Assembly: GCF_018873765.1 (NCBI RefSeq)
Contig: NC_057925.1
Span: 12,039,568 to 12,103,567, forward strand
Reading direction: 5' to 3'
Length of the DNA: 64,000 nucleotides
Origin: Telopea speciosissima
Taxonomy: Eukaryota > Streptophyta > Magnoliopsida > Proteales > Proteaceae
Made by a program: the position numbers and the translations under genes. The notes beneath the pieces are model-generated. The model was not told where the DNA came from. It ran no database searches and saw only the letters and a list, made by a program, of their open reading frames with translations. Within the stretch, counting starts at the first letter, position 1. The number at the start of each line of letters is the position of its first letter. This document shows, piece after piece, positions 2,160 through 57,641 of the stretch.

Positions 2160-2964
2160 ATGAAGATGGAGGAGAAGGAAGAGGAATTGAAGCTCTTGGG
2201 AACAAAGTTAAGCCCATTTAGCTGGAGAATTATATGGGTATTGAAACTGAAGGGAATCGAATACGATTTCATAGAAGAAGATCTGAGAAACAAGAGCCAA
2301 TTGCTTCTCTCGTCTAACCCAGTTCATAAGAAAGTTCCAGTACTCATTCATGGTGGTAAAGCCATACCTGAGTCAATAATTATTCTCTTATATATAGAGG
2401 AGACATGGTTAAAGAATCCCATATTGCCCAATGACCCTTATGAGAGATCACAAGCCCTTTTTTGGGCTAAATTTGCTGATGAGAAGGTGAGGGCTTTCTT
2501 CAATTCCTAGCTAGAACTTGTTTTCATTCTTAATTTTCCTCTCTCCAAATTATATGATAAAAATTGATATGGGTTTGTTGTTCTTAATTGGTAAGTTCTT
2601 GCCGGAGATTGAGATGGCTTTCAGTTCTACTGGAGATGATCAGGTGAAAGCTGTAGAATTAGCAACAGCGGCTTTAGAAGTACTTGAAGGAGAGATTAAG
2701 GGGAAGAGATTCTTTGGAGGAGATAGAATTGGGTTTGTGGATGTTGTGGTTGGTTGGATTGCTTATTGGTTAGAGATGGTTGAAGAAGCTGCTTGTTTCA
2801 AGGTATCGAATTCCAAGAAGTTCCCTTCACTTCATTCATGGATGAACAACTTTTTGGAAGTTACTGTCATTAGGGAGAACCTTCCATCTCCTGATGATTT
2901 GCGTATTTTTTTTCATGATCTTCGGCAAGTTAAGTGTGATTCACTGACTCAAGAAATTAAATAA
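2160..2964 (+). CDS. Tau-class glutathione S-transferase (two exons)
   Basis: Probable cytosolic tau-class GST, which conjugates glutathione to electrophilic compounds. Exon 1 is 2160-2486 and exon 2 is 2596-2964; the 109-bp phase-0 intron starts GTGAGG and ends GGTAAG, at the position usual for tau GSTs (after the FWAKF..EK stretch). The spliced protein is about 231 residues, normal for the class. The thioredoxin-like N domain shows SPFS with the expected catalytic serine near residue 18, [10 protein letters not shown] with the cis-proline, and PES for the glutathione gamma-glutamyl contact. Exon 2 encodes the helical C domain with [16 protein letters not shown] chose ATG 2160 because it puts [11 protein letters not shown] at the normal distance from the N terminus; an upstream in-frame ATG at 2061 would add 33 unlikely residues. 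The 3' end carries a small tandem duplication. The paralogue at 49815 is broken near its start. Confidence 0.9.
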
Positions 2965-3046
2965 CTCTCTCGTCATTAGGGAGAACCTTCCATCTCCTGA
3001 TGATTTGCGTATTTTTTTTCATGATCTTCGGCAAGTTAAGTGTGAT
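2867..3046 (+). repeat. 106-bp partial tandem duplication at the GST 3' end
   Basis: The sequence from 2867 is repeated from 2973, with an offset of 106 bp and nearly perfect identity over about 74 bp. It spans the last codons, the stop and the start of the 3' UTR. The paralogous site near 50520-50640 has only one copy, so this arose after the segmental duplication or was lost from copy 2. A CT microsatellite borders it. Confidence 0.85.
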
Positions 3047-3927
3047 CTCTCTCTCTCTCTCTGGGTTTGTATGTATTTTAAGCTTGTAGAAGCCAATTTT
3101 TTTAAAAAAATAAAATATGGATAAATCTGTCCGATCTAGACTGATACAGGCGATCCGGATCGATATTGACTGAGAACCTGAGACCAATCCTGTATCTGAT
3201 ACGGATTCCTAAAACTTTGGACTTTACTAATGGTCCTGCTCTACTTGGGCCATTATAAGCCCACCAACCCCCTTAAGTCTTTCATAGCCATATGGACTAG
3301 AAAATTTGTGATTCATGATCCTAGCTAGGCATCAACTAAACTAGTGAAATGGTATTAAACATTAAACCACATGAGGGGAAAAGGTATCTAAGGGTATTTA
3401 TGACAATAGATGGGTTGGGTAGGCCTTTTACAAGAACCATACTTAAAGGAACTTTCTAAATGACACCTCTATAAGTGTATTTAAAATTTGATACATTCTT
3501 TAATTGCTTCTTGTATTATTCTCAAAAGGTCTTTAAAGTCAGGGATAAAAAGGATTTTCAATATTTATTTAAGAGTGACATATCATAAGTTACTATTGTA
3601 TTGCATATTTTTTGAATACATATATAAAGTGACATCATAATTTATCCTTGTTGAAAGAACAAATGTTATATACCTATAGGATAAAAAAGTAGGGTTCCAA
3701 TTAAAAAGTAGGGTTCCAATTTTATTTTTTTTGATAAACAAAGCTACAAATAATTTGGCACCTTAAAGAGGGTCAATAACAAAATCCCATACTAAAATAC
3801 CTTTTTCCCTTATTAAATTGGGCAGGTGAGCAAGCGATATATGTCCTCTCTTGCTCGTAGAGACACAATTTGTTCATTGCCAGCTCATCATGAGATATTT
3901 AATTCAAATCTTATAATTAATATATCT
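3047..3927. other. Intergenic, AT-rich; no gene seen
   Basis: Contains a CT microsatellite (3045-3062) and a GATC-rich repeat fragment (3118-3222), then AT-rich sequence without a supported coding region. It is matched by 50606-51509 with several percent divergence and small indels. Confidence 0.5.
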
Positions 3928-5143
3928 AATTATCTATTTGACTGACACCCTCACGTGGGACCTTAATCGACTTGACCAGGCTGCCCCTGGTCTTGCCCAG
4001 ATAATATCACTCATCCTTGTCTCGGGCGTCGACGACACTTGGTGGTGCACCCTGGCCAGTGACGACCATTTTAGCACTAAAAGAGCTACTAATTTTCTCA
4101 ATTCTCTTTCTACTAAGCATGATTTGTCTTCTGTCAATTGGTGGAATTTCTTTTGGAAACTTGATTTATTTCCTAAGTTTAAAATTTTTTTCTGGCGCCT
4201 ATTAAATGCAAGGATTTCAGTTAATGATATTGTGTCGAAATGGATTGAGATCAACCCCACTTGTGCTCTCTATGGTACTTGTGATGAGACCCTCCGACAT
4301 ATCTTGCTCTCATGTGATTGCGTTAAACATATCTGGACAGATGGTCCTCTGGGTCTGAGAACCGAGTTTCCAACCACCCCTCTTTGGAACATTTCTTCAT
4401 CTCTACTTTTCTTTCCTGCAGGCTCGGCAAGGGCTCACTCATTTGGTTTTTTTTCTATTTTTATAATAACTTGCTACTATATTTGGGATTTTAGAAATAA
4501 TTTACTGTTTAAGGCTACTACTCCTAGTCCATTATTATTGATGAAAAAAGTTGCTTTCTGGCTGCAAAAACTCCAAGCTGCAAATTTCTCCCACTACACT
4601 TCACCCTTCCCTATAATCAACTCTAATGATGAGGATTTCATCCCTTCATCCATGCCTGATTTACCTATTTTGGACTTTGCTGTTTTGCTATGCGTAGGGG
4701 TTGACTCCGCCAACTTGAAATCCGTAGGTTGGGCCGTTGGCATTTTGATAGGTGGCAAACTCTTTTTGGAAAATGCTGCTTTCATTAGGAAACATCATAT
4801 TTTCGAATCTAAGCTAACTGGAATTTTTAATGGACTAATTTTGGCACAAAAGAGAGGAGTGAAGCTGAAAGAAGTTTGGTGTGATGATAAATCCTTACCT
4901 GGACTTCTTCCAACTCCATCCCGATCTCCTTAGCCATACGACCTGCTGACTCTTTTTTTGCAGATATCACAACTATCTAAGGATGGTTTTTTTAGACAAA
5001 TGGATGATAAATTGGCTGAAGTCCAAGGCCCTTGTAGTTGCGAATCAGAACGTCCCTTGTATGATTGAACAGTGTACTAGTTTGCCCCCTTTTTAATTTT
5101 ATAAAATTTCCTTTCTTTCACCAAAAAAAAAAATTATCTATTT
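3928..5143 (+). mobile_element. 5'-truncated L1-type LINE tail with 12-bp target-site duplication
   Basis: The 12-bp direct repeat AATTATCTATTT at 3928-3939 and 5132-5143 flanks an insert ending in a poly(A) tract (5123-5132). An open frame at 3938-4933 encodes the C-terminal part of a plant L1 ORF2. It begins in a WDLNRL region, then has the reverse-transcriptase zinc-binding domain (PKFKIFFWRLLNARI, then a C/H cluster with ETLRHILLSC), then an RNase H-like domain. The element was cut short at its 5' end on insertion, as is usual for target-primed reverse transcription. The same insertion is present at 51510-52730, so it predates the segmental duplication. Confidence 0.92.
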
Positions 5144-5740
5144 TGGAAATTTATTTCCTTAATACATAAATATTTATTACCAAAACCACATACTTTTGAT
5201 AAGATGATCAAGACTAAGGGTGTCAATCGGTTCGGTTTCGATCATTTGGTTCGATTTTGGTTTGGTTCTATGAAATGATAATGTGATCCAAATCCGAACT
5301 AAGAACTGCCTCAGTTTTAGAATTAAATACAAATCCGAACCTACTCGGTTCGATTAGGTAATTGTTCCAATTCGGGTCTTGATACGATTTTAATTCGGTT
5401 ATATAGCTCAATTTGTATTCCTTTTGTTAAACAGTTCTACTATTTAATTGGCTTTAAATTCCCAGCAATATCTATTACTAAAAGTCCTACACATGCTCAT
5501 CTTGTATTTTTTGGTCTTACAATTTTAAATGCACACTTTGAAAATCCATTTAATTAAAAAATTATAACAGGTTGGAACTTGGAACTTGGGAGAGATGAAG
5601 AGTGTCATAGAGAATAGAGATAGTAAAACCTTTTAAAAATTATAAAAGGTTGAAACTTGAAACTTTGGAAGTTAAAGAGTTTGCTGCAACATAAGAATAA
5701 AGAAATAAAGCATTAAAGCCTAAAGGTCAACTGCCGTATT
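5144..5740. other. Intergenic with a 'GGGTGTCAAT' repeat
   Basis: Positions 5216-5420 match a common dispersed plant repeat that starts GGGTGTCAATCGGTTCGG and is rich in GGTTCGGTT words; the same type recurs near 35280-35480, 35620-35800, 39740-39960 and 52805-53000. The rest is AT-rich and without a supported gene. Confidence 0.5.
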
Positions 5741-5955
5741 AAAATACCCCCACTCCCCTTGGGATCCAGCTCCTCTCCAGCGCACTTGAACGCCCGATGG
5801 TGTCCAATGCACATCGTGCAGCTGGGGGCTTCGATCCACCCCATTGCACGCATCCCGATGCAGTGATGTATGGATCGAAACCTCCCTAGCCGGACGATGT
5901 GCGCGGGAGAGGAGTTAAATCCCTCCCGTTCCTTCATCTTCAACAAAAATACCCC
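5741..5955. mobile_element. Small inverted-repeat MITE (about 195 bp)
   Basis: Imperfect terminal inverted repeats of about 24 bp lie at 5761-5784 (GGGATCCAGCTCCTCTCC...) and 5900-5923. The sequence AAAATACCCC occurs on both sides (5741-5750 and 5946-5955), which fits a 9-10 bp Mutator-type target duplication. In copy 2 the same MITE was later split by a hAT-type insertion. It is non-coding. Confidence 0.6.
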
Positions 5956-7896
5956 ACCCCTCTCCTTTCTCTTTGCTATTGATTGACGGAAAACAACAAC
6001 AGGAGAAATCTGGATTGAAGCTGAGTGAGGTGGAGAGCAGCGAAAGAGTTAAAGGCAGAGGAAGGTCATTTGTCACCTGAGAGGCGAAAGGGCGCAGCGG
6101 CTTCCCTTCTTCTTATTCATCGTCGTTTCCACATCAAAATTCAGGATCAGAATCAGAATCAGATAATAGAAACCAGAAAGAGACGCAGAGAAAGAGATAG
6201 ACCTCACGCGCAGAACATTTTCTATTCTGGCACAGTTGATGATAACGATAATTAGTTCTACTTTTTTCCTTTGCTCTTCTAGTTCTTCCTCGCAATCCAA
6301 GTAGAAAACGCACCAAATATATTTTGCTCAATTGACTACCGATTCTGAGGAGCTCCAGTCATCCTGAGCGGCGCCACCACCTTGTCTACCAAGAAATGTA
6401 AGAAAAATCCCCAACCACCACGAGCACCTCTCCCCACTAACCCCTCTTCTCGTCTCGGTTATTTCTTCTTCTTATTTTAGTCCCTACTACCTACTGTTTA
6501 GTTTATTTTTTGCTTCTTGGTTTCTACGTTGGGTAGTCAAACTGTGTCTCTTCTTTAAACTGATATATAGCAACACATATAGTATTACATATATTAACTT
6601 GTTTATCTCCCTGAATCTGGAAGGAGCTAGAGAGATCGAGTAGATATCCTGTTTAGAAGCATTTCTCTTTCTCTGTGCTTGTTTCTACTTTCAAAATCCA
6701 ATCTGAGCTGCTCTATATCTGGAAAAGGGCAAAGGTGAGCTCAGAACCTTTTTTCCCCATCAAAATACCAATTTTCTTCTGTTATTTAGCTAATTAAGTT
6801 GAGGTTTCCAGATATTCAACTAAGCAAAGTCATTCAGGTTTTACCTCTTATTAGTTTACTTATTCTACAGATCCTTTCAATACAGTGTATGTCTCACATA
6901 TGGGCAATAATATCAAACTATTTATTGAAATCAAGGTTTAGTTCAATATTTGATAACCTTAGAGTCAGTCAATCCTACATATCAAGATGGTGATATAAGG
7001 CTTGATTTCTCTTATGCACCTATCTCTCTGCAAATATTGAGAGCCACATGTGACTGTAAATCTGAAGATGTTCTGACAATTTTAAGCATTTTATCAAGCA
7101 CAATCCAACTCCTTTAGGGTAAGAAATCAAATATATTCAAAATAACTACCAATGTGATACGAGCTAAAACAACCCACATATGAGAAAGAAAAGATAAGAG
7201 TTCCCTTAAGATCAGGAAAGGTAGTTCTAGATAAAATTATATTTGTTGGATCATTTTGAACATGTATGCTGAAAATCATTTTGGTTATCTGCTTAGCAGT
7301 GAATACTTAAAAAGGATTAAAGACTTCATTGTACATTGGTTCATCAAGTGCAAGAGTGTTTCTATTTGGGTCTTTTTTTTTTTCTGGTAATATTTTCCAT
7401 TTGGGTTCTTAATTACATAAGAATAAAAAAAAGTTAAGGCATTAATATAAATATATAGATATTTATTATAAAAAAAATTGTTTGAGGAGCTCCATGGTTA
7501 TCTTAATTTGATTTTTGTAACGACCACAGATGAATATTCAAAACAAACAGAATGTCAAAACTAGGCCTCTTTGCCTCTGTCAGTATTCATCTGCTTTAGA
7601 AATTGTTCACTGATGCTGTCCTGTTTACACTTTGAGGGTGTCCTGGAAATAGTATCAGTATTTTCCAGAATTATGAATGATATCTTCCAATTTTTGTACT
7701 TCAGGAACAGTAATGAATTGGAATCCCCAATTGATACATTTTTTTTTCTTCATATAACTTGTTTAACATGTATGACAAATAAAATGCAGTATATGGTCTT
7801 ATAGATGGTCTGTCGCGACTTTACTTTCTTCACAAAAGATGTATCTAACAATATGTTTTTCAATATTTTCTGTTTCAACTCTGAAGTGCATATACA
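5956..7896. other. BAHD upstream region; possible untranslated exons, no gene identified
   Basis: About 1.9 kb shared with 54256-56198 at roughly 99% identity. Short open frames (for example 6025-6255) lack an ATG and show no recognisable domain. Donor-like sites occur near 6398 (GTAAGA) and 6736 (GTGAGC), so an untranslated leader exon of the BAHD gene or a separate non-coding transcript is possible. Nothing coding can be supported from sequence alone. Confidence 0.4.
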
Positions 7897-9335
7897 ATGC
7901 AGAGTGTACACAGTACTTCAGCAGATATGGCTCATACTAATCCAGTGAAGGTACTGGAGCATTGCAAAATCTCTCCACCACCGGGATCTCTCGGAAACAA
8001 GATCCTTCCCCTCACCTTCTTCGACATTTTCTGGTTGCCACCCTATCCCCATGTGAAGGCCCTTTTCTTTTCTGAATATTCTTACTCTATGCACCACTTC
8101 AAAAATACCATATTTCCCAACCTTAAACACTCACTTTCCCTCACACTCCGGCACTTCTATCCTCTTTCCGGGCATCTAGTATGGTCTCAAGAATTATCCG
8201 AGCCCGAGTTCTGTTACATTGATGGAGACTCTGTCTCCCTAACCTTAGCAGAATCAGATGGTGATTTCCACCATCTCTCAGGCAATCATGCAAGAGATGT
8301 CAATCAATTCCATTGTCTTGTCCCTACGCTTACCCCGTCATCCATGGTTGATCCTGAATTTTCAATTCCACTTTTGGCTTTGCAAGTAACAGTGTTTCCA
8401 AACTCTGGCATTTGCATCGGAGTAACTGCTAGTCATGTAGCCCTTGATGCTAGGACCCTTGTCCACTTCATGAAGGCATGGGCATCAGTTTCTGAATCAG
8501 GAGTTGATTCTTTGCCACTAGACTCTGCCATTCCATAACAGGAATGTAATAAATGATCGGAAGGAGCTCAAGACGATTTACTTGAATGAGATTAAAAACC
8601 TCAGAGGAACCATTGAACAGAAAAGATCTAAGGTTTCAGACAATCATATGGTCCCATCTGACATAGTCCAGGCAACATTTGTTGTGAACCAAAACGATGT
8701 TGAACGACTGAGGCAATGGATCTTGGCTATACGTAAGAAGGATGAGGATCAGACATCAATCACCCTACCACATCTATCAACATACACTATAATTTGTGCA
8801 CACTCATGGGTTTGCTCAATTAAATCGAGATCAATCGATGGTGCTGCTGGTAAGAGTCAAGATATGGAGATCTTCCTCATTGCCATGGACTGCCGCATCA
8901 GGGATCGCCTGGATCCTCCAGTTCCAGAAACATATTTTGGAAATTGCTTGATAGGTTGTGTTGCAACAGTGAAAAGGAGTGACTTAATGGGAGAAGATGG
9001 GATCAGCATAGCAGCAGAAGCGATCACAAAGGCAATAAAGAAGCGATTGGATGATGGAGTACTGAAAGGAGCAGAGTACTTGATGTCTGAGATGAGTGCA
9101 GCAGTAACTAAGGAGCCTTTTGCAGTTGCAGGATCTCCTAAGTATAGAATATATGATACAGATTTTGGGTGGGGAAGGCCAAAGAAGTATGAATCACTCA
9201 GAGTTGGTGGGAGACTTCTCACTTTATGACTGCAAAGATGGAGAAGGCAGCCTGGAAGTTGGGGTTGCTTTCCCTAAGCTTCAAATGGATTATTTTTTTT
9301 CTCTGTTTTACAGATTTCAGCCTAATGCTGCCTGA
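7897..9335 (+). pseudogene. BAHD acyltransferase, frameshifted copy
   Basis: Paralogue of the intact BAHD gene at 56199-57641, about 99.5% identical in nucleotides. It has the same start, the HVALD catalytic motif (HxxxD family signature), the YFGNC motif and the DFGWG structural motif. Two separate 2-bp deletions relative to copy 2 break the frame: one near 8524-8530 (a CT unit lost from a CT repeat, giving a stop just after residue 210) and one near 9215 close to the C terminus. The first removes everything after the HxxxD half, including DFGWG, so no functional BAHD enzyme is expected. A short N-terminal protein of 213 residues could still be made. The low divergence means inactivation was recent, unless gene conversion has homogenised the copies or the deletions are assembly errors. 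Confidence 0.88.
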
Positions 9336-10487
9336 TAGATTGTTTTGTTCTAAGTAAAGTACATTCTCATTTCTGATGAGACTTTCTAATGGCATCTTTG
9401 GCCAAATTAATAATGTTTAAATAAAAAAAAAACTTAAGATATTCTAAGTTGAATTTCTTATGATATGGTGTGGTGGACATAAGCAAAAGCCCCCACGCAA
9501 TACATGAGTGGGTAAAAGTTTTATTGGGTAGTCTTACAAGTACTTCAGATTCAGGGAGTCTAGGTGAAGTCCACAGTTTTCATGTGTCCACCAGCCCCTG
9601 CTACAGGAGATTGGAGGTCTGGTGGGTGACAACCCCCTTGTAAGCAATTACTAGATAATAACAAGCTTGAACACATTGTTCCAACTATAATATAATCAAT
9701 TTGCTCCACTTGTAAACATTTTTTAGGAACAATAGCAACTACAAATTGATCTAATGGCACTTCTCTCTGCAGTTAGAAATCCAAGATGAGTGGAAAAAAT
9801 GAGAACCTAATTGGATTTACTCAACCAAAGTTACTGTATTTTATGGTAAATGTCTACTTGGAAGAAATGCCACCAGAAGACTAAACACTGAGATGCTGTT
9901 AAATGGCTTACTTGGGTAATCCTGTCAGGTTTAATGGTATCAAACAGAGCAACTTATCCTAGATTTAAATATTAACTAATAGTGATAAAAGTGGGTTTTC
10001 TCAGATTAGGCTGAGTAAGTAACTACACTCATAATATAATATCTTTCAGAACGTCTTCCCCACCCTCACCTTCTCTTTTGTCCAAAGTCATTCTTTCTAG
10101 TTTTGTAACCAGGCCACACAAACAGAGTGCAAGAGAGTTAAGGTTAGCAATTTCCTCTACTAAAAATACATGGATCATATTTCTCACCTAAATCAATAGA
10201 TTACTAGAAGGAGAATGGATGAAATCTCCTAGGCTGACATGACATATATGGCAAAGTAGAAGTAGAATGCAGCTCGTTTCATGAAAAAAGGGGAAGTGAC
10301 ATGAGAATAAGGCAAACAAAAACGTTCAGTTTGGAACTTTGTACACCAAAGATTCCTAATCAAAGTTATCAAGTTAGCATGATTGAAGACTAAACAAATG
10401 GCCAAGCCAAAGCAAGTGAACTGAGTACAGAGCATAATTGGTTTTTTGAAACCAACTGCGAAGACAAACCTCAAAGAGATGTAAGTA
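9336..10487. other. Intergenic; no gene seen
   Basis: The BAHD 3' UTR and AT-rich spacer. Open frames at 9560-9760 and 10229-10474 have no recognisable domain and are not supported. Positions 10288-10292 (AAGGG) are the empty target site of a solo LTR that is present only in copy 2. Confidence 0.5.
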
Positions 10488-10870
10488 GGGGTGCAAGTTT
10501 AGACCTGTCGGCCGAGCCCACCATGACTCGCCCTGAGCTTGAATAGGGTCTGGGCGGAGATATCCGGCCCTTGAGGGGTGGGTAAGGCCCGAGATTTTTT
10601 TGCCCTGAGTTAGGGTTGGGTTTGGCCCAGGGTTGACGCTTTAGGTTGAGTTCGGTCCGTCCCAGCCCGACCCTGTCTTTTTTTTCTTCTTCCTTCTTCT
10701 TCTTCTTTCTTCTTCTTCTCCCCGGCCTGGCCCAGCCCCTTCTCACCTCCCCATGATCAGGGCCATTCAAGGTCAGCCTAGCTCAGTCCTGAGAACAAGT
10801 CAGAGTTGGATTTTTCAGGCTCTGAGTCAAGATCGGGGCAGCCCTTGGCCCAACTAAGGGAAATCAGTAT
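10488..10870. repeat. GC-rich dispersed repeat, hAT-MITE-like
   Basis: Begins GGGGTGCAAGTTTAGACCTG and is full of GGCCC/GGGCC words, interrupted by a CTT-rich microsatellite (10680-10720). Related sequences lie at 35959-36760, 37620-38198, 44995-45190, 53460-54011 and 59215-59600. The copy at 53460 has clear 8-bp target duplications, so the family is probably a non-autonomous hAT group. The Lys/Arg-rich open frame here comes from the repeat. Confidence 0.6.
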
Positions 10871-11304
10871 TGGACTGGGATAAAAATTCTCTCCAATTTT
10901 TAATCTGGCAGTACCTGGCAATGCTACCTTCATTGTGCAACAAGTGGCACAAGATGATCTAATGGCCAAGAATGGTTTGCACCATTTCATGAAACTCTGC
11001 CCGTTTTGGCAATCAGATCCTCTCAAACCGAGTAGATGGCAAACCCAAAAACGAAGGAAGTAGAAAAATAAAATAAAACGCAGAAAGAAAGAAGGAAACA
11101 CTTTCAAATGGCAAGCTTCCCTCTCTCGGTTCATCTTCTTCCTTTCTTCCCATCGTTGGAGAGCTACAGAGGTTACACCAGATCTACTTTCCTTCTTATT
11201 TATCTGCAACAATGGCATTTTTTTGGGTGCTTGTCTCTTCTCTTATCTCAGTATTTTCAGGATAATGACCGATGTGAGTTCTTCGTTGGTTGTTTGCCTT
11301 CCTT

Positions 11305-12375
11305 TCATCTCCTGGGGAAGCTTGTACATGAACTTGACCTCATAGACGGGCCTTGGGTTCACCGTTCACGAAGGAGAAGTAAGCGTCCCAGAACTTCATC
11401 CCCCGCACCACCGTCCCATAGAATATACTCTATTCCGTCTTCATCGCCACCGGCACTATCCGATCACTTAGCTCTACAAAGAGCACACTAAACCTGAGCA
11501 GGAACGGTTTCGCTGATGGGTCATGGTTGACCATGTATCTTTCCTATTAATCAAATTTTCACTATCATCATCGTCTGATTTTTATCTTTGAGAATAAAGA
11601 GGAAACACCTAGATCTTTGGTCTTTATTTTCCATTGCGATTATCATCACTATAGATTCGAAACAGGATTAGTGGTTTTATCTCTGATTCTCTATTATTTA
11701 TTTGATTGTGTTCTTAAACACACTATGGAGATCCTCGCGTTTATGATTTTGTACCTATTTGAATCAAACTATTCTAACATGAATTTCCTTTCTAAGAAAT
11801 TAAATCATTACATTGAAGCAAACCCATAAGAAGACCAAAAATAAAAATTTCTCCTTCACGGATCAAAATGTACGTTTGTTAGGTGAATGACATTATTACA
11901 ATCACTACTTCTACATTTTAATTGGTCATAGAGGGACCAGAATTCAGAATTATCCCTTCTCTGTTTCATTTTCCAACCTGGTGGATGTAGCAGAAACTAG
12001 AAAACGAAACAGAATGGACACATTATTTTCGCCATTAAAATTGAATTAAATCCTAAAGTACGAACCTTGCAAAGGGACATGAAAGGGTGGTCAGACTCGC
12101 GATCTCCCAAACCCAAGATGAGGCAAATCATCGTCTCCGACCAAAACTCCGGGCTTCTTCACGAATCCAGTGGCTCTCCCAGTCTTGGGGTTTACCTTGA
12201 TCTCAGTTCCAAGCACCTTACCTCGTCCCAAGAAATCCTTCACGAACGGCTCTACCATCACAGTTCGGTTGGCAGTGACCACCACCTTTCTCTTGCACTT
12301 ACTAAACACGTTCCAACTCTTCAAAGTTTCAAAGCTTTGAAGTCTTCTGTTCTGCTTCAGAGAACTGTAAACCAT
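11305..12375 (-). pseudogene. Glycerol-3-phosphate acyltransferase (GPAT) gene fragment
   Basis: Read on the minus strand, 12375-12091 encodes the HAD-like N-terminal part of plant sn-2 GPATs: KRKVVVTANRTVMVEPFVKD, then FLG..KVLGTEI..NPKTGRATGF and KKPGVLVG. Further on, about 11540-11305, come recognisable C-terminal acyltransferase segments: [37 protein letters not shown] and KFMYKLPQEM. Land-plant GPATs of this family make monoacylglycerols for cutin and suberin. The middle of the protein, including the expected acyltransferase core motifs, is missing or unreadable, and stops interrupt the C-terminal part. It is therefore a captured, non-functional fragment. It lies inside an inverted-repeat element, and the same fragment is at 60025-61140. 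Confidence 0.82.
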
Positions 12376-12500
12376 GAACTAGGAAAGGGAAAATGGGGGA
12401 CTCTGCGATGTGAAAGTGTTTCCTTCTTTCTGCGTTAATTTTTTTTTTTTTTTTTACAATCTTTTTTCTACTTTCTGTTTTTTTTGGGTTTACCATCTAC

Positions 12501-12568
12501 TAGGGATGTAAACGGATCGGATTCGGCTCGGATAGTGCTATATCTGCATCTGCATCTGATTAGCTTTT
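12501..12568. mobile_element. Remnant of a hAT-type MITE
   Basis: Begins TAGGGATGTAAACGG and matches the left 68 bp of the complete 270-bp MITE at 61257-61526. The rest has been deleted, and the sequence continues directly into an RTE LINE tail. Confidence 0.75.
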
Positions 12569-12569
12569 G

Positions 12570-12830
12570 CCACATGGATAAGGTGGCATGGTCATGTTAA
12601 ATGAAGGCCTTTGGGTGCTCTAGTGCAAAAGAATGATTTGATTCAGATTGAAGGAACTAAAAGACCTAGGCGCAACCCTAAAATGATCTTAGGAGAAGTG
12701 ATGAGGAAAGACATGCATAGTTTAGGTCTTATCAACTATGACCTCGAATAGAACTGATTGGAGGGCAAGGATCCATGTAGCCGACCCCATTTAGTGGTCC
12801 GATGCTTTCTCCCTAGGGGAATGGAGTTCG
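12570..12830 (+). mobile_element. RTE-type LINE 3' tail
   Basis: The conceptual translation resembles the conserved C terminus of plant RTE elements: KRPRRNPKMILGEVMRKDM, followed by a decayed stretch equivalent to RIHVADP (nucleotides near 12765-12792). It is a short, broken fragment; a shorter piece is at 61668-61800. Confidence 0.7.
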
Positions 12831-13314
12831 GATTTTTTCAACCCATTGCACCTACAAGTAGGCCTACCAAACCAAATTGACTGGAGCCCCAATTGGGTAC
12901 AGTCTCTCCTACACACAAGTCATTCACGTGCACACCCAATTTGGGAACCATTAATTTCTAAGGGTGTAGGATGGAGATCCAGCTCCTCTCTAGGGAGCTC
13001 AATGCCCAGGGCACGCCCAGGGGGCATCCAAGGGTGGGGCTGTGTTGCACACATCTCGGTTCACGCCTAAGAATGTGTGCGGCACGTATAGCCCAATGGC
13101 TGGATGCTCCATGCAGACGAACTCAATTGGTAGGATGGTCTTAACGTTCCATTTTTCAAGATTAGGAATAAGAGAATTTCATTAGATGTTAGTTTTTCTC
13201 AAATCTAAAAGTTGCATGTGGTTATTGCCAGTTCCATAAGTTTAAAAGTTATTGAACTTAAGTATTAAAGCCATGGAAAATTACAAAATTTATATCTTCT
13301 TTAGAAGGACAAGA
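12831..13314. repeat. Non-coding repeat resembling the 5741 MITE
   Basis: Positions 12960-13100 share GATCCAGCTCCTCTC words and a GTGTTGCACACATC motif with the MITE at 5741-5955, which suggests a related foldback family. Flanking sequence is AT-rich with no supported gene. The counterpart is 61801-62260. Confidence 0.4.
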
Positions 13315-13810
13315 TGTTGTAGAAAAAAAAGTTCACCTAAAATGACACAGAAAAGAATGGAATCGTAAACAAACAATCACACAATCAAACACAAGGATTT
13401 ACGTGGTTCGGCAAGATTGCCTACGTCCACGGTGGGATGAGATCTGTTTTACTATCAATGCAGAAAGGGTTATAGTCGCTCGTCCTCACACCTCTCTCAA
13501 ATTAATTACAGAGAAAGAACTATCACTAAAAATTTATAGCAAAACCCAATACAAGTTATTTACTGTTTCAACATCTTGGCCTTCTCTGAGTAAAAAATAT
13601 ATAACATGGATAGGTAGTTGGAGCAAACCACTGCAGGGAAACAAATCAAAGTCAGTTCATCAAACAAAAATCATAGTTGTTACCAAAAGAGGCAACTTGA
13701 ACCTCTCTATTAACCAATGGAGTTCCTAATTGATAAAATTACGAAGGTATCCTATGTTTAACTCTTTCTTGTCCCACAAGTATTATTTTGTATAAAATAA
13801 ATGACATCAG
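13315..13810 (-). mobile_element. Copia-type solo LTR-like remnant (fossil)
   Basis: Begins TGTTGTAG and ends near TGACATCA. Around 13398-13430 it contains ACGTGGTTCGGC..GATTGCCTACGTCC, in reverse orientation the kind of sequence found near the 3' end of many copia LTRs. No clear target-site duplication was found. It is present in both duplicated blocks (62262-62760), so it predates them. Confidence 0.5.
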
Positions 13811-15210: not shown

Positions 15211-15409
15211 TTATTGTACTTCAATATCATTTAGGTCACCTAGAGTAATTTTATGAAAATGTTCCACAAGTGATGCTCGAAGAACAAGTAGCTCTTCTGA
15301 TACTTGATGTATAGTTGGGCGGGATTGTGGGTGATTGTGTAAACATGCAAGTGCTATTCTCACAATAGAAGCCACCTCCTTTGCAACCTTTTGATGTGAT
15401 GGAAACGTG

Positions 15410-17121: not shown

Positions 17122-17124
17122 GTG

Positions 17125-44098: not shown

Positions 44099-44279
44099 AA
44101 TTTAAACGATTTTGTTCGATTTTGGGTAAATAATTTCAGTTCAAAATTAACATGGTTATATGTTTTGCCACTGTTTATATCACTCTGATTCAGCAAATTG
44201 GTCAACAGCTACTTTTGCATAATGGATAGCACCGTTTGATATTTTCTAGGGAGAAAGAACGTTAACCGATGCTTCACTA

Positions 44280-45526: not shown

Positions 45527-47304
45527 GGGTTTTTAACAAATGTCCCTCATAAAATGTCCATTTGTCCAAATGCCCCCTTGTAATTTTTCTAATTGTAAAT
45601 TCTTCCTTACTTTCAAAACATTGTAGCATTTTGGTCCAATCCATTAGAATGGAACGTTAGAGGTTAGTTTCAGGGAATCTAATGACCAAAATGCCCTTAT
45701 GATGAAAACCAACCAAAATTAAAGAGTAAAGTTACCAAATTACCCTCATCTTCCCCAAATAATTTAGGTTTGAAACTGAAACCTAAACGATTCCACAAAT
45801 TCGAATTGCCGCTGCTAATCGATTTTAATTCAGCAATTGTTCTAAAAGTTAACTTCCATTACTAAGCTCGGCAATTGTTCTGCAACTATATTGCTCATCA
45901 TCTCCGCCTGCAGATCTCAAAATCACCACCTCTTCCGACCACTGAAAAGGGATTCAAAACATGAATACGACCCCAATAGCTCTTTCCTTTCTTCTACCAC
46001 TCTTCACCTTCCATCATTTTTCTGTTTTGAATTCTTCCTAAACTGGGTCTAAACGTTTTTGCCAGATTTTCTGATTAGGCAGAAGCACATATCCATAAAT
46101 TAGCAAATTCGAATTTGGGAATAACTTTGAAGGAAAATGAAGAAAAATGGATGTAATTCAATCAGCATTACAAATTTTTTTTTGGGATGGGGTGAATTTG
46201 GTTATGAAAATCTTGGTAATGGAACGAATTAATTCCGGTATTGCACAAATTCATTCTATTTTTTTTTGTTTTCTAAAATCCCAACCCAGCCGAACCCATC
46301 TCGATATCCATTAAATCCCTCCAACCCATCTCTCTGCAACTCATCTTCCAAACCCTAGTTATCTCTTCTCTCTTGGCAAAAGTACAGTTGGAATCCATAA
46401 TCGGAGACCAGCTCCCGAAAGTTCCATGCCTTTCCTCCCTATCGTTCTTTTCAAACACTCAAATTTAGGGCATCCAATGACTAGAATATAGAATACAGAT
46501 TTCAATTGGATAAGAAACAGAGAAACAAAATGGGGGAGAACGAGAGGAGAGGATCAGGGAACCGAATCACTTATATTAATTTGCATTCTCAATTGGATTA
46601 GATTAACTTAACGAGGTCAAGAGAAAGGTACAGAGACCACTCGGGATAAAGATTACTTATTGCTTTTAGAGGGATAAAGATGGCGGAGGGGCAGAGCAGT
46701 TCTTCGTTAAAAGCCCAAACAATTGCTGAGGTTCAGTTGAGGTTGATGATGACGAAGAAGGAGATGGTCTGCAGGGTCTTCGCCTGAATCTGACTTCAAC
46801 GAGCCTCCATGGGATGAAACAGAGAAGTTCATATTGCAGGAGTACCCATCATGGAGATCGATTGGGCTTGGAAGATGAGTTGCAGGGCTGAGTGTTAATG
46901 AGGGTAATTTGGTAATTCTACCATATCAAGGGCATAATGGTCAAAAGAGTCCAACCGTTTGCACATAATGTTCCACTTTCCATTCTAACGGATTGGACCA
47001 AAATGCTACAATGTTTTGAAAGTAAAGGGAATTTACAATTAGAAGAAATTGTAGATCGATTGGGCTTGGAAGATGAGTTGCAGGGCTGAGTGTTAATGAG
47101 GGTAATTTGGAAATTCTACCATATCAAGGGCATAATGGTTAAAAGAGTCCAACCGTTTGCACATAACGTTCCACTTTCCATTCTAACGGATTGGACCAAA
47201 ATGCTACAATGTTTTGAAAGTAAAGGAAATTTACAATTAGAAAAAATTGTAGGAGGCATTTGAATAAATGGGCATTATTTTTAGGGGGCATTTGTCAAAA
47301 ACCC
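45527..47304. mobile_element. Mutator-like element with long inverted ends (A)
   Basis: Left end GGGTTTTTAACAAATGTCCC and right end (read inwards) GGGTTTTTGACAAATGCCCC begin inverted repeats of about 180 bp, which include a shared block around ATTTTGGTCCAATCC. No transposase is seen. Short open stretches inside (for example SDFNEPPWDETEKFILQEYP near 46793-46850) could be captured host sequence, but I cannot assign them. No clean 9-bp target duplication was found. Confidence 0.65.
46855..47250. repeat. 198-bp tandem duplication in the right end of element A
   Basis: Two units, 46855-47052 and 47053-47250, both starting AGATCGATTGGGCTTGG and nearly identical. Each includes inverted-end sequence, so the right end is effectively doubled. 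Confidence 0.88.
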
Positions 47305-47305
47305 A

Positions 47306-49197: not shown

Positions 49198-49814
49198 AAT
49201 CAGGAATCAGATCGATGAATCGGTTGTGAACAATCCTGATTCTGATAGATCGACACCGTCGATTCATGCCAAGAAACCCTAGAATTGCCAAGTATTCAGA
49301 TCTAAGGACCAATTCTTGCCGATTCCGATCTGATCTGGATCAAACTTGGAGTACAGTTTACCCAAAAAAGAATTCTCCAAAACAGAAGGGACCCACTGGC
49401 ATCTGGTAGCCATTAGTCAGGCCATTTTGTGCTACCCACTAGGCCACTACAAGTCTACAACTCATTTGGGTCCAAATCGTATTCCAAAACTCCTTCCAGC
49501 AATCTTTTATCGTATCCTTCAACGTCATAAAACCAATAACTTTTATGTTTTGGCTTTAACTGAATATAAGCAGTTGAGCAACTAAAAGAAAGATAGTGAC
49601 TAAAAATGGAAAATTTTAGGGAAAGAATAGAGAAATGTGGCCAACTTGAACAGAAGTAACCACTAGATTCCGAATCCTTACAAGATATACAATAATCCAA
49701 TCACATTACTGTAAAATGCTCAGGTTTTTGGGTTTCAAATTTATCTTTGATGAGTTTGGTCATATGGCTTCCATTATGCTTTTAAAGCAGATTTTTTGTT
49801 ACCAAGAGAGCATC

Positions 49815-50605
49815 ATGAAGATGGAGGAGAAAGGAAGAGGAATTGAAGCTCTTGGGAACAAAGTTAAGCCCATTTAGCTGGAGAATTATATGGGTATTGA
49901 AACTGAAGGGAATCGAATACGATTTCATAGAAGAAGATCTGAGAAACAAGAGCCAATTGCTTCTCTCGTCTAACCCAGTTCATAAGAAAGTTCCAGTACT
50001 CATTCATGGTGGTAAAGCCATACCTGAGTCAATAATTATTCTCTTATATATAGAAGAGACATGGTTAAAGAATCCCATATTGCCCAATGACCCTTATGAG
50101 AGATCACAGGCCCTTTTTTGGGCTAAATTTGCAGATGAGAAGGTGAGGGCTTTCTTCAATTCCTAGCTAGAATTTGTTTTCATTCTTAATTTTCCTCTCT
50201 CCAAATTATATGATAAAAATTGACATGGGTTTGTTGTTCTTAATTGGTAAGTTCTTGCCGGAGATTGAGATGGCTTTCAGTTCTACTGGAGATGATCAGG
50301 TGAAAGCGGTAGAATTAGCAACAGAGGCTTTAGAAGTACTTGAAGGAGAGATTAAGGGGAAGAGATTCTTTGGAGGTGATAGAATTGGGTTTGTGGATGT
50401 TGTGGTTGGTTGGATTGCTTATTGGTTAGAGATGGTGGAAGAAGCTGCTTGTTTCAAAGTATGGAATTCCAAGAAGTTCCCTTCACTTCATTCATGGATG
50501 AACAACTTTTTGGAAGTTCATGTCATTAGGGAGAACCTTCCATCTCCTGATGATTTGCGTTCTTTTTTTCATGATCTTCGGCAAGTTAAGTGTGGGATTC
50601 ATTGA
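49815..50605 (+). pseudogene. Tau-class GST, copy 2, frameshifted at its start
   Basis: Paralogue of the GST at 2160-2964, with exon 1 at 49815-50142, the same 109-bp intron and exon 2 at 50252-50605. One extra A near 49830 puts the ATG at 49815 out of frame; translation from it stops within about 20 codons. The correct frame has a stop just upstream and no ATG anywhere else in exon 1, so a normal protein could only come from a non-AUG codon such as the TTG at 49843. The catalytic [14 protein letters not shown] and PES residues and the C domain are otherwise preserved, and the C terminus differs slightly (VKCGIH). It is probably a recent pseudogene; an assembly error is the alternative. Confidence 0.8.
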
Positions 50606-51509
50606 CTCAAGAAATTAAATAACTCTCTCTCTCTCTCTCTAGGTTTGTATGTATTTTAAGCTTGTAGAAGCCAATTTTTTTTTAAATAAAATATGGATAA
50701 ATCTGTCCGATCTAGACTGATACAGGCAATCCGGATCGATATTGACTGAGAACCTGAGACCAATCCTGTATCTGATACCGATTCCTAAAACTTTGGTCTT
50801 TACTAATGGTCCTGCTCTACTTGGGGCATTATAAGCTCACCACCCTCCTTAAGTCTTTCATCGCCATATGGACTAGAAAATTTGTGATTCATGATCCTAG
50901 GCATCAACTAAACTAGTGAAATGGTATTAAACATTAAACCACATGAGGGAAAAAGATATTAGACATTAGACCACATGAGGGGAAAATGTCTCTAAGGGTA
51001 TTTATGACAATAGATGGGTTGGGTAGGCTTTTTACAAGAACCATACTTAAAGGAACTTTTTAAATGACATCTCCATAAGTGTATTTAAAATTTGATACAT
51101 TCTTTAATTGCCTCTTGTATTATTCTCAAAAATCTTTAAGTCAGGGATAAAAAGGGTTTTCAATATTTATTTGAGAGTGACATATCATAAGTTATTATTG
51201 TATTGCATATTTTTCGAATACATAAAATGACATCATATTTTATCCTTGTTGAAAGAACAAATGTTATACACCTAAAGGATAAAAAAGTAGGGTTCCAATT
51301 TTTTTATTTTATTTTATAAACAAGGCTACAAATAATTTGGCACCTTAAGAAGGGTCAATAACAAAATCCCATACTAAAATACCTTTTTCCCTTATTAAAT
51401 TGGGCAGGTGAGCAAGCTATATATGTCCTCTCTTGCTCCTGGAGACACTATTTGTTCATTGCCAGCTCATCATGAGATATTTAATTCAAATCTTATCATC
51501 AATACATCT
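50606..51509. other. Intergenic, matches 3047-3927
   Basis: AT-rich, with a CT microsatellite and a GATC-rich fragment (50695-50805). No gene seen. A short local duplication (ATTAAACCACATGAGG-like words at 50932 and 50967) is specific to this copy. Confidence 0.5.
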
Positions 51510-52730
51510 AATTATCTATTTGACTGACACCCTCACGTGGGACCTTAATCGACTTGACCAGGCTGCCCCTGGTCTTGCCCATACAATATCCCTCATCCTT
51601 GTCTCAGGAAGTCGATGACACGTGGTGGTGCACCCTGGCCACGATCCGTTTTAGCACTAAAAGAGTTGCTAATTTTCTCAACTCTATCTCCACTAAGCAT
51701 GATTTGTCTTCTGTCAATTGGTGGAATTTTTTTTGGAAACTTGATTTACTCCCTATGTTTAAAAATTTTTTCTAGCGTGTATTAAGTGTAGGAATTTCAG
51801 TTAAGGATATTGTGTCGAAATGGATTGAGATCAATCCCACTTGTGCTCTCTGTGGCACTTGTGATGAGACCCTCTGGCATATCTTACTCTCCTGTGATTG
51901 GATTAAACATATCTGGGCAAATGGTCCTCTGGGTCTCAGAATCGAGTTTCTCAACCACCCATCTTTGGAACATTTCTTCTTCTCTACTTTTCTTTCCTGC
52001 AGCCTCGACAAGGGCTCACTCATTTGATTTTTTTCTGTTTTGATAATAACTTGCTATTGTATTTGGGATTTTAGAAACAATTTACTGTTTAAGGCTACTA
52101 CTCCTAGTCCATTATTATGGATGAAAAAAGTTGCTTTCTGGCTGCAGGAACTCCAAGTTTCTCCCCCTACACTTCACCTCTCCCTGTAATCAACTCTAAT
52201 GATGAGGATTTCATCCTTTTATCCATGCCTGATTTACCTATTTTGGATTTTGCTGTTTTGCTATGCGTAGGATTTGACTCCGCCAATTTGAAATCCACGG
52301 GCTGGGCCGTTGGCATTTTGATAGGTGGCAAACTCTTTTTGGAAAGTGTTGCTTTCATTAGGGAACATTATATTTTGGAATCTAAGTTGACTGGCATTTT
52401 TAATGGACTAATTTTGGCACAAAAGAGGAGAGTGAAGCTGAAAGAAGTTTGGTGTGATGATAAATACTTGCCTGGACTTCTTCCAACTCCATCCCGACCT
52501 GCTGACTCTTTTTTTGTAGATATCACAACTATCTAAGGATGTTTCTTTCAGACAAATAGATGATATCAGCATGTTAAATTGGCTGAAATCCAAGGCCCTT
52601 GTAGTTGCTAATCAGAACGTCCCTTGTATGATTGAAAAGTGAACTAGTTTGCCCCCTTTTTAATTTTATAAAATTTCCTTTCTTTCACAAAAAAAAAAAA
52701 AAAAAAAACAAAAAAAAAAATTATCTATTT
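51510..52730 (+). mobile_element. 5'-truncated L1-type LINE tail, copy 2
   Basis: Same insertion as 3928-5143, with the AATTATCTATTT repeats at 51510-51521 and 52719-52730 and a long A-rich tail (52688-52720). Here the open frame is broken: a frameshift near 51605, a stop in the FWRLL region near 51776, and another shift near 51950. This copy has decayed further than copy 1. Confidence 0.92.
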
Positions 52731-53329
52731 TGGAAATTTATTTCCTTAATTTAATACATAATTATTTATTACCAAAATCACTTACTTTTTATAAGATTAT
52801 CAAGACTAAGGGTGTCAATCGGTTCGGTTTTGATCATTTGGTTCGATTTTGGTTTGGTTCTATGAAGTGATAGTGTGATCCAAATCCGAATCGAGAAGTG
52901 CCTCAGTTTTAGAATTAAAGCCAAATCCAAACCTACTCGGTTCGATTGGGTTATTGTTCCAATTCGGGTCTTGATACGATTTTAATTCGGTTATATAACT
53001 CAATTCCCATTCCTTTTGTTAAACAGTTCTACTATTTGGCTTTAAATTCCCAGTTACCAAAAGTCCTACACATGCTCATCTTGTATTTTTGGGCCTTACA
53101 ATTTTAAATGCACACTTTGAAAGTTCATTTAATTAAAAAATTATAAAAAGTTGGAACTTGGAATTTTTGGAGAGACGAGGAGTCATAGAGAATAGAGATA
53201 GTAAAACCTTTTAAAAATTAGAGAAGGTTGAAACTTGGAACTTCGGAGGGTAAAGAGTATCCTGCAACATAAGAATGAAGAAATAAAGCATTAAAGCCTA
53301 AAGGTCAACTGTCATACTAAAATACCCCA
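52731..53329. other. Intergenic with GGTTCGGTT-rich repeat
   Basis: Counterpart of 5144-5740; the repeat lies at about 52812-53000. No gene seen. Confidence 0.5.
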
Positions 53330-53451
53330 CTCCCCATCCAGCTGCTCTCTAGTGCACTTGAGGTGTCCTATGCACATCGTGCGGTTGGGGGGCTTAGATC
53401 CACACCACCGCATGCATGCTGGTGCAGTGGCGTGTGGACCGAGACCTCTCT

Positions 53452-54019
53452 AGCCAGACTAGGGCTACAACAGGGTCGGGTTGGGCCTGGCTTTTTAAAA
53501 CCCTAGCCCAACCCTGAGTCCCCTTAGCTGGGCCTAGGCCCGCCCTGACCCTAACTTAGGGCCTAAATACCTTGACCCTAACCCTGACCCTGACGGGCCA
53601 AGCCCAACCCAAGCCCGCCCTGATTGGGGCTTGGCCTAATGGCCCTAGCCCTACAGTAATTAAATTAAAATAACAATTCTAGAGAAGATGTGAAAGAGGA
53701 GGCTTGAACCCAAGACCTTTCGATAACAATTGATTTTTTCACAACACAAACGGCCAAGTGCCCTATGCACTTGTTTATATTAGTAATAGTTTCTATTTTT
53801 TAATAAATAAAGAAATTTCTTCAGTGCCAAAATCAGGATAAAAAATCAGGGTCAAAATCAGGGTCGGGCTGAGCCCGAGGTCTCAACCCTGACCCTGACT
53901 CAGGGCCAGGAATTTCTGGTCCTAACCCGCCCTCAGGACCAGAAATCTTAGCCCAGGCCCTGTTCGGGCTCAGGTCAGGTTCGGGTCGACAAGGCCAAAC
54001 TAGCAGCCCTAAGCCGGAC
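53452..54019. mobile_element. hAT-type MITE, 552 bp, with 8-bp target duplication
   Basis: The element at 53460-54011 starts TAGGGCTACAAC and ends TAGCAGCCCTA, with short inverted ends. It is flanked by AGCCAGAC (53452-53459) and AGCCGGAC (54012-54019), an 8-bp duplication with one difference. Copy 1 has the single empty site AGCCGGAC at 5888-5895. The interior is GC-rich with GGCCC/GGGTC words and no transposase. It sits inside the older MITE equivalent to 5741-5955. Confidence 0.9.
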
Positions 54020-54069
54020 GATGTGCGCGGGAGAGGAGTTCAATCCCTCCCGTTCCTTCATCTTCAACT

Positions 54070-54255
54070 AAAATACCCTGGATCTTCATCGCCCCAGTAC
54101 TGGGGCGGTCAAGTGTCATCATGCGGCTGGAGCACCAGCCATGTGTGCACGGTGGGGCCCACTGTGCACACATGGCGGTGCCCCAGCCGCATGATGCGCA
54201 CTTGACCGCCCCCAGTACCCCCAGTACTGGGGGCGATAATTTTACAAAATACCCC
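54070..54255. mobile_element. Foldback (Mutator-like) MITE, about 166 bp
   Basis: Between AAAATACCCT (54070-54079) and AAAATACCCC (54246-54255) lies a near-complete palindrome with arms of about 65-75 bp (ATCGCCCCAGTACTGGGGCG... and its complement) around a centre near 54150-54165. Copy 1 has an uninterrupted AAAATACCCC at 5946-5955. A transcript would fold into a long hairpin. Confidence 0.85.
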
Positions 54256-56198
54256 ACCCTTCTCCGTTCTCTTTACTATTGATTGACGGAAAACAACAAC
54301 AGGAGAAATCTGGATTGAAGCTGAGTGAGGTGGAGAGCAGCGAAAGAGTTAAAGGCAGAGGAAGGTCATTTGTCACCTGAGAGGCGAAAGGGGGCAGCGG
54401 CTTCCCTTCTTCTTATTCATCGTCGTTTCCACATCAAAATTCAGAATCAGAATCAGATAATAAAAACCAGAAAGAGACGCAGAGAAAGAGATAGACCTCA
54501 CGCGCAGAACATTTTCTATTCTGGCACAGTTGATGATAACGATAATTAGTTCTACTTTTTTCCTTTGCTCTTCTAGTTCTTCCTCGCAATCCAAGTAGAA
54601 AACGCACCAAATATATTTTGCTCGATTGACTACCGATTCTGAGGAGCTCCAGTCATCCTGAGCGGCGCCACCACCTTGTCTACCAAGAAATGTAAGAAAA
54701 ATCCCCAACCACCACGAGCACCTCTCCCCACTAACCCCTCTTCTCGTCTCGGTTATTTCTTCTTCTTATTTTAGTCCCTACTACCTACTGTTTAGTTTAT
54801 TTTTTGCTTCTTGGTTTCTACGTTGGGTAGTCAAACTGTGTCTCTTCTTTAAGCTGATATATGGCAACACATATAGTATTACATATATTCACTTGTTTAT
54901 CTCCCTGAATCTGGAAGGAGCTAGAGAGATCGAGTAGATATCCTGTTTAGAAGCATTTCTCTTTCTCTGTGCTTGTTTCTACTTTCAAAATCCAATCTGA
55001 GCTGCTCTATATCTGGAAAAGGGCAAAGGTGAGCTCAGAACCTTTTTTCCCCATTAAAATACCAATTTTCTTCTGTTATTTAGCTAATTGAGTTGAGGTT
55101 TCCAGATATTCAACTAAGCAAAGTCATTCAGGTTTTACCTCTTATTAGTTTACTTATTCTACAGATCCTTTCAATACAGTGTATGTCTCACATATGGGCA
55201 ATAATATCAAACTATTTATTGAAATCAAGGTTTAGTTCAATATTTGATAACCTTAGAGTCAGTCAATCCTACATATCAAGATGGTGATATAAGGCTTGAT
55301 TTCTCTTATGCACCTATCTCTCTGCAAATATTGAGAGCCACATGTGACTGTAAATCTGAAGATGTTCTGACAATTTTAAGCATTTTATCAAGCACAATCC
55401 AACTCCTTTAGGGTAAGAAGTCAAATATATTCAAAATAACTACCAATGTGATACGAGCTAAAACAACCCACATATGAGAAAGAAAAGATAAGAGTTCCCT
55501 TAAGATCAGGAAAGGTAGTTCTAGATAAAATTGTATTTGTTGGATCATTTTGAACATGTATGCTGAAAATCATTTTGGTTATCTGCTTAGCAGTGAATAC
55601 TTAAAAAGGATTAAAGACTTCATTGTACATTGGTTCATCAAGTGCAAGAGTGTTTCTATTTGGGTCTTTTTTTTTTTTTTTTTTTTCTGGTAATATTTTC
55701 CATTTGGGTTCTTAATTACATAAGAATAAAAAAAAGTTAAGGCATCAATATAAATATATAGATATTTATTAAAAAAAAAAATTGTTTGAGGAGCTCCATG
55801 GTTATCTTAATTTGATTTTTGTAAGGACCAAAGATGAATATTCAAAACAAACAGAATGTCAAAACTAGGCCTCTTTGCCTCTGTCAGTATTCATCTACTT
55901 TAGAAATTGTTCACTGATGCTGTCCTGTTACACTTTGAGGGTGTCCTGGAAATAGTATCAGTATTTTCCAGAATTATGAATGATATCTTCCAATTTTTGT
56001 ACTTCAGGAACAGTAATGAAATGGAATCCCCAATTGATACATTTTTTTTTTTCATATAACTTGTTTAACATGTATGACAAATAAAATGCAGTATATGGTC
56101 TTATAGATGGTCTGTCGCGACTTTACTTTCTTCACAAAAGATGTATCTGACAATATGTTTTTCAATATTTCCTGTTTCAACTGTGAAGTGCATATACA
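54256..56198. other. BAHD upstream region, copy 2
   Basis: About 99% identical to 5956-7896. The same donor-like sites are present and no coding region is supported. A T-tract near 55668-55686 is longer than in copy 1. Confidence 0.4.
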
Positions 56199-57641
56199 AT
56201 GCAGAGTGTACACAGTACTTCAGCAGATATGGCTCATACTAATCCAGTGAAGGTACTGGAGCATTGCAAAATCTCTCCACCACCGGGATCTCTCGGAAAC
56301 AAGATCCTTCCCCTCACCTTCTTCGACATTTTCTGGTTGCCACCCTATCCCCATGTGAAGGCCCTTTTCTTTTCTGAATATTCTTACTCTATGCACCACT
56401 TCAAAAATACCATATTTCCCAACCTTAAACACTCACTTTCCCTCACACTCCAGCACTTCTATCCGCTTTCCGGGCATCTAGTATGGTCTCAAGAATTATC
56501 CGAGCCCGAGTTCTGTTACATTGATGGAGACTCTGTCTCCCTAACCTTGGCAGAATCAGATGGTGATTTCCACCATCTCTCAGGCAATCATGCAAGAGAT
56601 GTCAATCAATTCCATTGTCTTGTCCCTACGCTTACCCCGTCATCCATGGTTGATCCTGAATTTTCAATTCCACTTTTGGCTTTGCAAGTAACAGTGTTTC
56701 CAAACTCTGGCATTTGCATCGGAGTAACTGCTAGTCATGTAGCCCTTGATGCTAGGACCCTTGTCCACTTCATGAAGTCATGGGCATCAGTTTCTAAATC
56801 AGGAGTTGATTCTTTGCCACTAGACTCTCTGCCATTCCATAACAGGAATGTAATAAATGATCGGAAGGAGCTCAAGACGATTTACTTGAATGAGATTAAA
56901 AACCTCAGAGGAACCATTGAACAGAAAAGATCTAAGGTTTCAGACAATCATATGGTCCCATCTGACATAGTCCAGGCAACATTTGTTGTGAACCAAAACG
57001 ATGTCGAACGACTGAGGCAATGGATCTTGGCTATACGTAAGAAGGATGAGGATCAGACATCAATCACCCTATCACATCTATCAACATACACTATAATTTG
57101 TGCACACTCATGGGTTTGCTCAATTAAATCGAGATCAATCGATGGTGCTGCTGGTAAGAGTCAAGATATGGAGATCTTCCTCATTGCCATGGACTGCCGC
57201 ATCAGGGATCGCCTGGATCCTCCAGTTCCAGAAACATATTTTGGAAATTGCTTGATAGGTTGTGTTGCAACAGTGAAAAGGAGTGACTTAATGGGAGAAG
57301 ATGGGATCAGCATAGCAGCAGAAGCGATCACAAAGGCAATAAAGAAGCGATTGGATGATGGAGTACTGAAAGGAGCAGAGTACTTGATGTCTGAGATGAG
57401 TGCAGCAGTAACTAAGGAGCCTTTTGCAGTTGCAGGATCTCCTAAGTATAGAATATATGATACAGATTTTGGGTGGGGAAGGCCAAAGAAGTATGAATCA
57501 CTCAGAGTTGGTGGGAGACTTATCTCACTTTATGACTGCAAAGATGGAGAAGGCAGCCTGGAAGTTGGGGTTGCTTTCCCTAAGCTTCAAATGGATTATT
57601 TTTTTTCTCTGTTTTACAGATTTCAGCCTAATGCTGCCTGA
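56199..57641 (+). CDS. BAHD acyltransferase, flavonoid/phenolic-glycoside malonyltransferase-like
   Basis: Single-exon gene for a 480-residue BAHD acyltransferase, the usual length. These soluble enzymes transfer an acyl group from a CoA thioester to an alcohol or amine. The catalytic motif HVALD is at residues 180-184, YFGNC at 347-351 and the structural DFGWG at 423-427. The N terminus has LPLTFFDIFWL. YFGNC and the overall layout place it with anthocyanin/flavonoid-glycoside aromatic acyl- and malonyl-transferases; donor and acceptor cannot be told from sequence. The second methionine, at residue 11 (56229), starts MAHTNPVKVLEHC, which fits the family start better than M1, so the true protein may be 470 residues. 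No TATA box could be assigned with confidence. Its copy at 7897-9335 is broken. Confidence 0.93.
   Translation: MQSVHSTSADMAHTNPVKVLEHCKISPPPGSLGNKILPLTFFDIFWLPPYPHVKALFFSEYSYSMHHFKNTIFPNLKHSLSLTLQHFYPLSGHLVWSQELSEPEFCYIDGDSVSLTLAESDGDFHHLSGNHARDVNQFHCLVPTLTPSSMVDPEFSIPLLALQVTVFPNSGICIGVTASHVALDARTLVHFMKSWASVSKSGVDSLPLDSLPFHNRNVINDRKELKTIYLNEIKNLRGTIEQKRSKVSDNHMVPSDIVQATFVVNQNDVERLRQWILAIRKKDEDQTSITLSHLSTYTIICAHSWVCSIKSRSIDGAAGKSQDMEIFLIAMDCRIRDRLDPPVPETYFGNCLIGCVATVKRSDLMGEDGISIAAEAITKAIKKRLDDGVLKGAEYLMSEMSAAVTKEPFAVAGSPKYRIYDTDFGWGRPKKYESLRVGGRLISLYDCKDGEGSLEVGVAFPKLQMDYFFSLFYRFQPNAA

Follow-up and report, generated by a model that had tools for sequence, protein, structure and literature searches.

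The duplicated block and its surroundings

The window analyzed here is a stretch of 64,000 nucleotides of Telopea speciosissima DNA (C10:12039568-12103567, C10 being contig NC_057925.1) that holds two copies of a block carrying a predicted tau-class glutathione S-transferase (GST) gene and a predicted BAHD acyltransferase gene (Table 1). A BLASTN comparison of the window with itself placed the two blocks in direct orientation as five collinear pieces of 87.3 to 98.2% identity, so that they are true duplicates, as an earlier note on this DNA had proposed. Lying 47 to 48 kb apart, they are tightly linked. A further copy at about 8.2 Mb on the same contig matches 48663-49078, just to the left of copy 2, and finds nothing in 1-1575, to the left of copy 1, which indicates that copy 2 has kept the older left flank.

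Table 1. Features of the duplicated block and of related copies. Plain numbers are window positions; other positions are given by contig.
Feature	Position	Strand	Details
Block copy 1	1575-15011	+	GST, reverse-transcriptase remnant, BAHD, downstream repeats; BLASTN vs 49261-63999
Block copy 2	49261-64000	+	Homology runs on beyond window end; BLASTN
GST copy 1, open	exon 1 2160-2486, intron 2487-2595, exon 2 2596-2964	+	231 aa
GST copy 2, broken	49815-50605	+	Exon bodies about 49815-50142, 50252-50605; exon 2 end counted from translation
BAHD copy 1, broken	7897-9335	+	2-bp deletions after 8522 (in CT repeat) and after 9216
BAHD copy 2, open	56199-57641	+	480 aa; Pfam PF02458, 2.4e-51
Low-divergence tract, probable gene conversion	5946-10285 (partner 54246-58591)		Segment scan
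Copia LTR retrotransposon	15410-24627	+	1.7-kb LTRs, 96.4% identity; Copia gag and RVT_2 domains; in copy-1 flank
Third block	C10, about 8.227-8.233 Mb		3.9 Mb from window blocks; open BAHD and GST fragment
Open BAHD	C10:8230485-8231918		90% identity to copy 2; query residues 1-477 of 480, no stop
GST fragment	C10:8227071-8227225		155 bp
Inverted BAHD, broken	C10:12030910-12032343		Four stops
GST pseudogene	C7, 19.995 Mb		Close to window GST, 80% DNA identity

The Copia element is flanked by a 5-bp target repeat, ACGTG. It interrupts the flank of copy 1, whereas the corresponding flank of copy 2, past the window end, is uninterrupted and has no Copia insertion; the element therefore inserted after the block had been duplicated. 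A related LTR sequence lies inverted at 39975-44101. Sequence from the downstream end of the block recurs locally (14256-15405 and 24631-29121) and again past the window end, and a direct repeat of 203 bp with 97% identity occupies 46852-47252. Between the blocks, on the minus strand, is an LRR receptor-kinase-like gene in two frames (33181-34179 and 31326-33155, together 31326-34179), whose kinase match breaks off early, at position 166 of the 263 in the profile; the gene may carry a frameshift or be divided by an intron.

The GST pair

GST copy 1 carries the Pfam domains GST_N and GST_C, and its best relatives of solved structure are plant GSTs, several of them named tau class or GSTU, which argues for placing the predicted protein in the tau class. 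In copy 2 the ATG is followed at about 49830 by an extra A (an A run of 2 versus 3 between the copies), and the ATG frame ends at a stop after 20 codons. A search for a rescuing start found no ATG ahead of exon 2: directly upstream the GST frame is closed by a stop codon, and exon 2 holds the first Met in that frame. The open frame of copy 1 is the reason for treating the extra A as derived; outgroups gave no polarity at this site, the matches of the C7 pseudogene and the 8.2-Mb fragment beginning only at residues 52 and 62. Copy 1, unlike copy 2, has 80 bp beyond the stop codon (2965-3044) that partly repeat the 3' end of the GST.

The two GST copies differ by 7 synonymous changes over 137.8 sites and 6 replacement changes over 513.2 sites (Fisher p 0.009). 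Constraint thus acted on the protein through much of the period after duplication, and copy 2 probably acquired its start lesion recently. Residue 134 is Glu in copy 2 and in all 23 paralogs that have a residue at this position (among 34 loci supplied, some of them identical pairs), and Ala in copy 1. The word working, for copy 1, describes an open frame that encodes a putative enzyme. The replacements are not all on copy 1, because copy 2 has an unusual Trp at residue 180 (0/23 paralogs) where copy 1 has Ser (4/23). At residue 199 the residues of both copies are absent from the paralogs.

The BAHD pair

BAHD proteins have the motifs HxxxD and DFGWG. The translation of BAHD copy 2 contains HVALD and DFGWG along with the transferase domain, which supports its assignment as a putative BAHD acyltransferase, and its nearest solved structures are a malonyltransferase (2xr7), an acyl transferase (2e1t), and an anthocyanin 5-aromatic acyltransferase (7dev). 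At neither deletion site of copy 1 does length vary among the other three sequences (copy 2, the inverted pseudogene, and the 8.2-Mb copy), which places the origin of both deletions in copy 1. When polarized by the 8.2-Mb copy, the four replacements that separate the pair (codons 85, 194, 200, and 292) all fall on copy 1, a distribution that is not significant (p 0.125) and in which codon 200, where the 8.2-Mb copy differs from both, was placed by the single base that separates copies 1 and 2. With 3 synonymous changes over 333.8 sites and 4 replacements over 1094.2 sites, constraint on the pair is likewise not significant (p 0.36).

The earlier note had read the GST as open in copy 1 and broken at its start in copy 2 by one extra base, and the BAHD gene as the reverse, with two 2-bp deletions in copy 1 and a full 480-codon frame in copy 2. 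Both descriptions were accurate, coordinates included, and the frames and lesions support gene-by-gene decay in opposite blocks.

Mosaic divergence between the blocks

Divergence is far from even along the blocks. The copies differ by substitution at 2.14% of sites over 1708-3050, which includes the GST, 7.54% over 3190-5873, 0.94% over 5946-9482, 3.12% over 9483-10282, 6.60% over 10284-12500, and 5.96% over 12719-15011. A segment scan of 1708-15011, minus the poorly aligned 12501-12718, picked out 5999-10258 (1.18% inside versus 6.02% outside; LLR 97.3 versus at most 11.5 in 200 permutations), and on transversions only it picked out 5974-9407 (LLR 36.8 versus a largest permutation value of 10.1). 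These permutations of sites ignore clustering of rates along the block, the outer parts of which are partly transposon-like and richer in transitions. At each edge the tract meets an indel difference: copy 1 has a gap near 5944 at one end and a gap of 421 bp near 10286 at the other.

With the 8.2-Mb copy as outgroup, compared over 10 collinear segments from which stretches common to it and copy 2 only were excluded, the between-copy difference divided by the outgroup difference gives 0.06 to 0.13 for the 6 segments within the tract. The 4 segments outside it, which are short (83 to 441 sites), give 0.32, 0.55, 0.91, and 0.39. One 8.2-Mb match at the tract edge, 10263-10485, pairs positions off the collinear line. 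The difference in ratio between inside and outside reveals a local excess of similarity beyond that expected from a slow rate. Synonymous change differs as well between the GST pair (7/138 sites) and the BAHD pair (3/334; p 0.008). The tract is best read as the product of gene conversion or an equivalent exchange, and conversion would seem the likelier of the two.

The low divergence of the GST region is only partly explained. Constraint reaches the exons but not the sequence upstream of the GST, which differs by 2.43% (the non-coding sequence upstream of the BAHD gene differs by 1.13%), and an account with a single tract leaves a remainder.

Further copies in the genome

Genome-wide searches covered one assembly of 822.9 Mb in 1287 contigs. 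Two of the four close BAHD copies are open, as is one of the four GST copies or remnants. The earlier note had concluded that one working gene of each kind remains. This fails for the BAHD gene, which has a second open copy, and holds at most for this lineage of GSTs: no other close open GST besides copy 1 was found among the matches listed, while the genome holds 77 GST_N matches spanning all GST classes. Stops lie inside 6 of these 77 matches and inside 11 of 61 BAHD matches genome-wide. The BAHD count ignores introns, so that some stops may be intronic, and its 11 matches do not stand for 11 loci, since BAHD copy 1 accounts for two of them and another two overlap on C7. Among the matches listed there was no near-identical alternate allele outside C1-C11, the one match on C110 being a distant GST at 68%.

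On C7 (C7:19994500-20078000), about 72 kb separates the GST pseudogene from a small cluster of BAHD genes at 20.07 Mb. An ancestral linkage of GST and BAHD genes there was considered and dropped, because the C7 GST has 80% DNA identity to the GST in the window and the C7 BAHD genes have 41 to 45% protein identity, so the two did not come from one event.

A probable history of duplication, conversion, and decay

We consider it probable that the locus records the ordinary nonfunctionalization of genes made redundant by a direct block duplication, together with later gene conversion. A block with a tau GST and a BAHD gene would have been duplicated to the two sites in the window, the older copy lying 3.9 Mb off, and the copies would then have diverged to about 6 to 7.5% across most of their length. 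After the duplication the Copia element would have entered the flank of copy 1, and a 4.3-kb stretch with the BAHD gene would have been homogenized between the copies, to about 1%. From a comparison of raw divergence, this homogenization appears to be later than the Copia insertion. Two 2-bp deletions would subsequently have hit the BAHD gene of copy 1, and the long-constrained GST of copy 2 would have lost its start frame through one inserted A. The history is built on the frames, the derived BAHD deletions, the mosaic divergence, and the constraint on the GST pair, all of which are observed; it takes the lesions to be real and fixed in the plant, as we infer, and supposes that the open copies are functional.

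The main rival is assembly or polishing error, above all for the one-base GST lesion. If at least one of the three small indels were absent from the plant, one or both gene pairs would be open in both blocks. A single A in a short A run is a common type of long-read error, which is the form the GST lesion takes, and the body of GST copy 2 still looks like a constrained gene. The BAHD tract is 98% identical between the copies, so that short reads can map ambiguously, and of its 8 small indels 6 are non-coding, 5 of these being 1-bp or in a T run. Both BAHD indels, however, are 2-bp and outside homopolymers, though one is in a short CT repeat, and indel errors would not be expected to place all four BAHD replacements on copy 1, small as that number is. 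On balance we regard such an error as unlikely but worth taking seriously. We give roughly half that weight to an account without conversion, in which the BAHD gene and its surroundings evolve slowly or were separately duplicated at a later date. In favor of this account, the BAHD gene is coding, and its flanks are in part transposon-like and show more transitions. Yet the non-coding sequence upstream of the BAHD gene is nearly as similar between the copies even though the segments lie 7 to 14% from the outgroup, the outgroup ratio changes from inside the tract to outside, and the collinearity of the blocks is unbroken across both tract edges.

The earlier note also saw in this pattern a case of divergent resolution, able to produce lineages or alleles that lack one enzyme. 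On that reading populations would differ in the functional block, and crosses would give plants lacking an enzyme. Divergent resolution is the loss of the same gene from different copies in different lineages, as set out in PMC5896889. Complementary lesions are indeed present here, but they affect two different genes, each broken once, within a single genome and in tightly linked blocks, which is no demonstration of it. Divergent resolution also calls for there being no other open copy, and the BAHD gene has one at 8.2 Mb. The reciprocal arrangement is itself of little surprise, because with one loss per pair the losses fall in opposite blocks in half of cases. The 0.94% difference in the BAHD tract is close to the heterozygosity of Telopea, given as 0.76% in PMC13080361, so the BAHD lesions may not predate the alleles of the species and might be segregating to this day. 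Even so, we consider divergent resolution in this sense highly improbable. A related and speculative possibility, to which we give low probability, is that the pair has been caught in the middle of resolution, with BAHD states that segregate and are copied between the blocks by conversion. The tau GST and the linked BAHD gene, which is close to anthocyanin and malonyl acyltransferases, would then form a small pigment or phenolic module whose readable halves lie in different blocks; the tau class has known members in anthocyanin transport.

Comparison with known systems

Ordinary duplicate decay with conversion is an already-known process. Similar decay of tandem duplicates occurs in the large enzyme families of plants, tau GST and BAHD among them, with one member frameshifted and open paralogs elsewhere; the present case differs in that two adjacent genes lost opposite copies. 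The tract resembles those left by ectopic gene conversion between tandem repeats, with low divergence and sharp edges that end at indel differences. A search of the literature on Telopea and glutathione S-transferase returned nothing on topic by title. In Mimulus, according to PMC5896889, degenerative mutations, a 1-bp insertion among them, likewise affect one of two copies of pTAC14; two species there carry the functional copy of this one gene at different loci, and the hybrids show lethality. Unlike Mimulus pTAC14, the Telopea case involves one genome, two different genes, and linked blocks.

Complementary broken genes in one genome are thus weak evidence for incompatibility, and extra copies, linkage, the 50% chance expectation, and gene conversion should all be checked before incompatibility is inferred. 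Should the lesions prove to segregate, the locus would offer a practical natural example in which to time gene loss against conversion.
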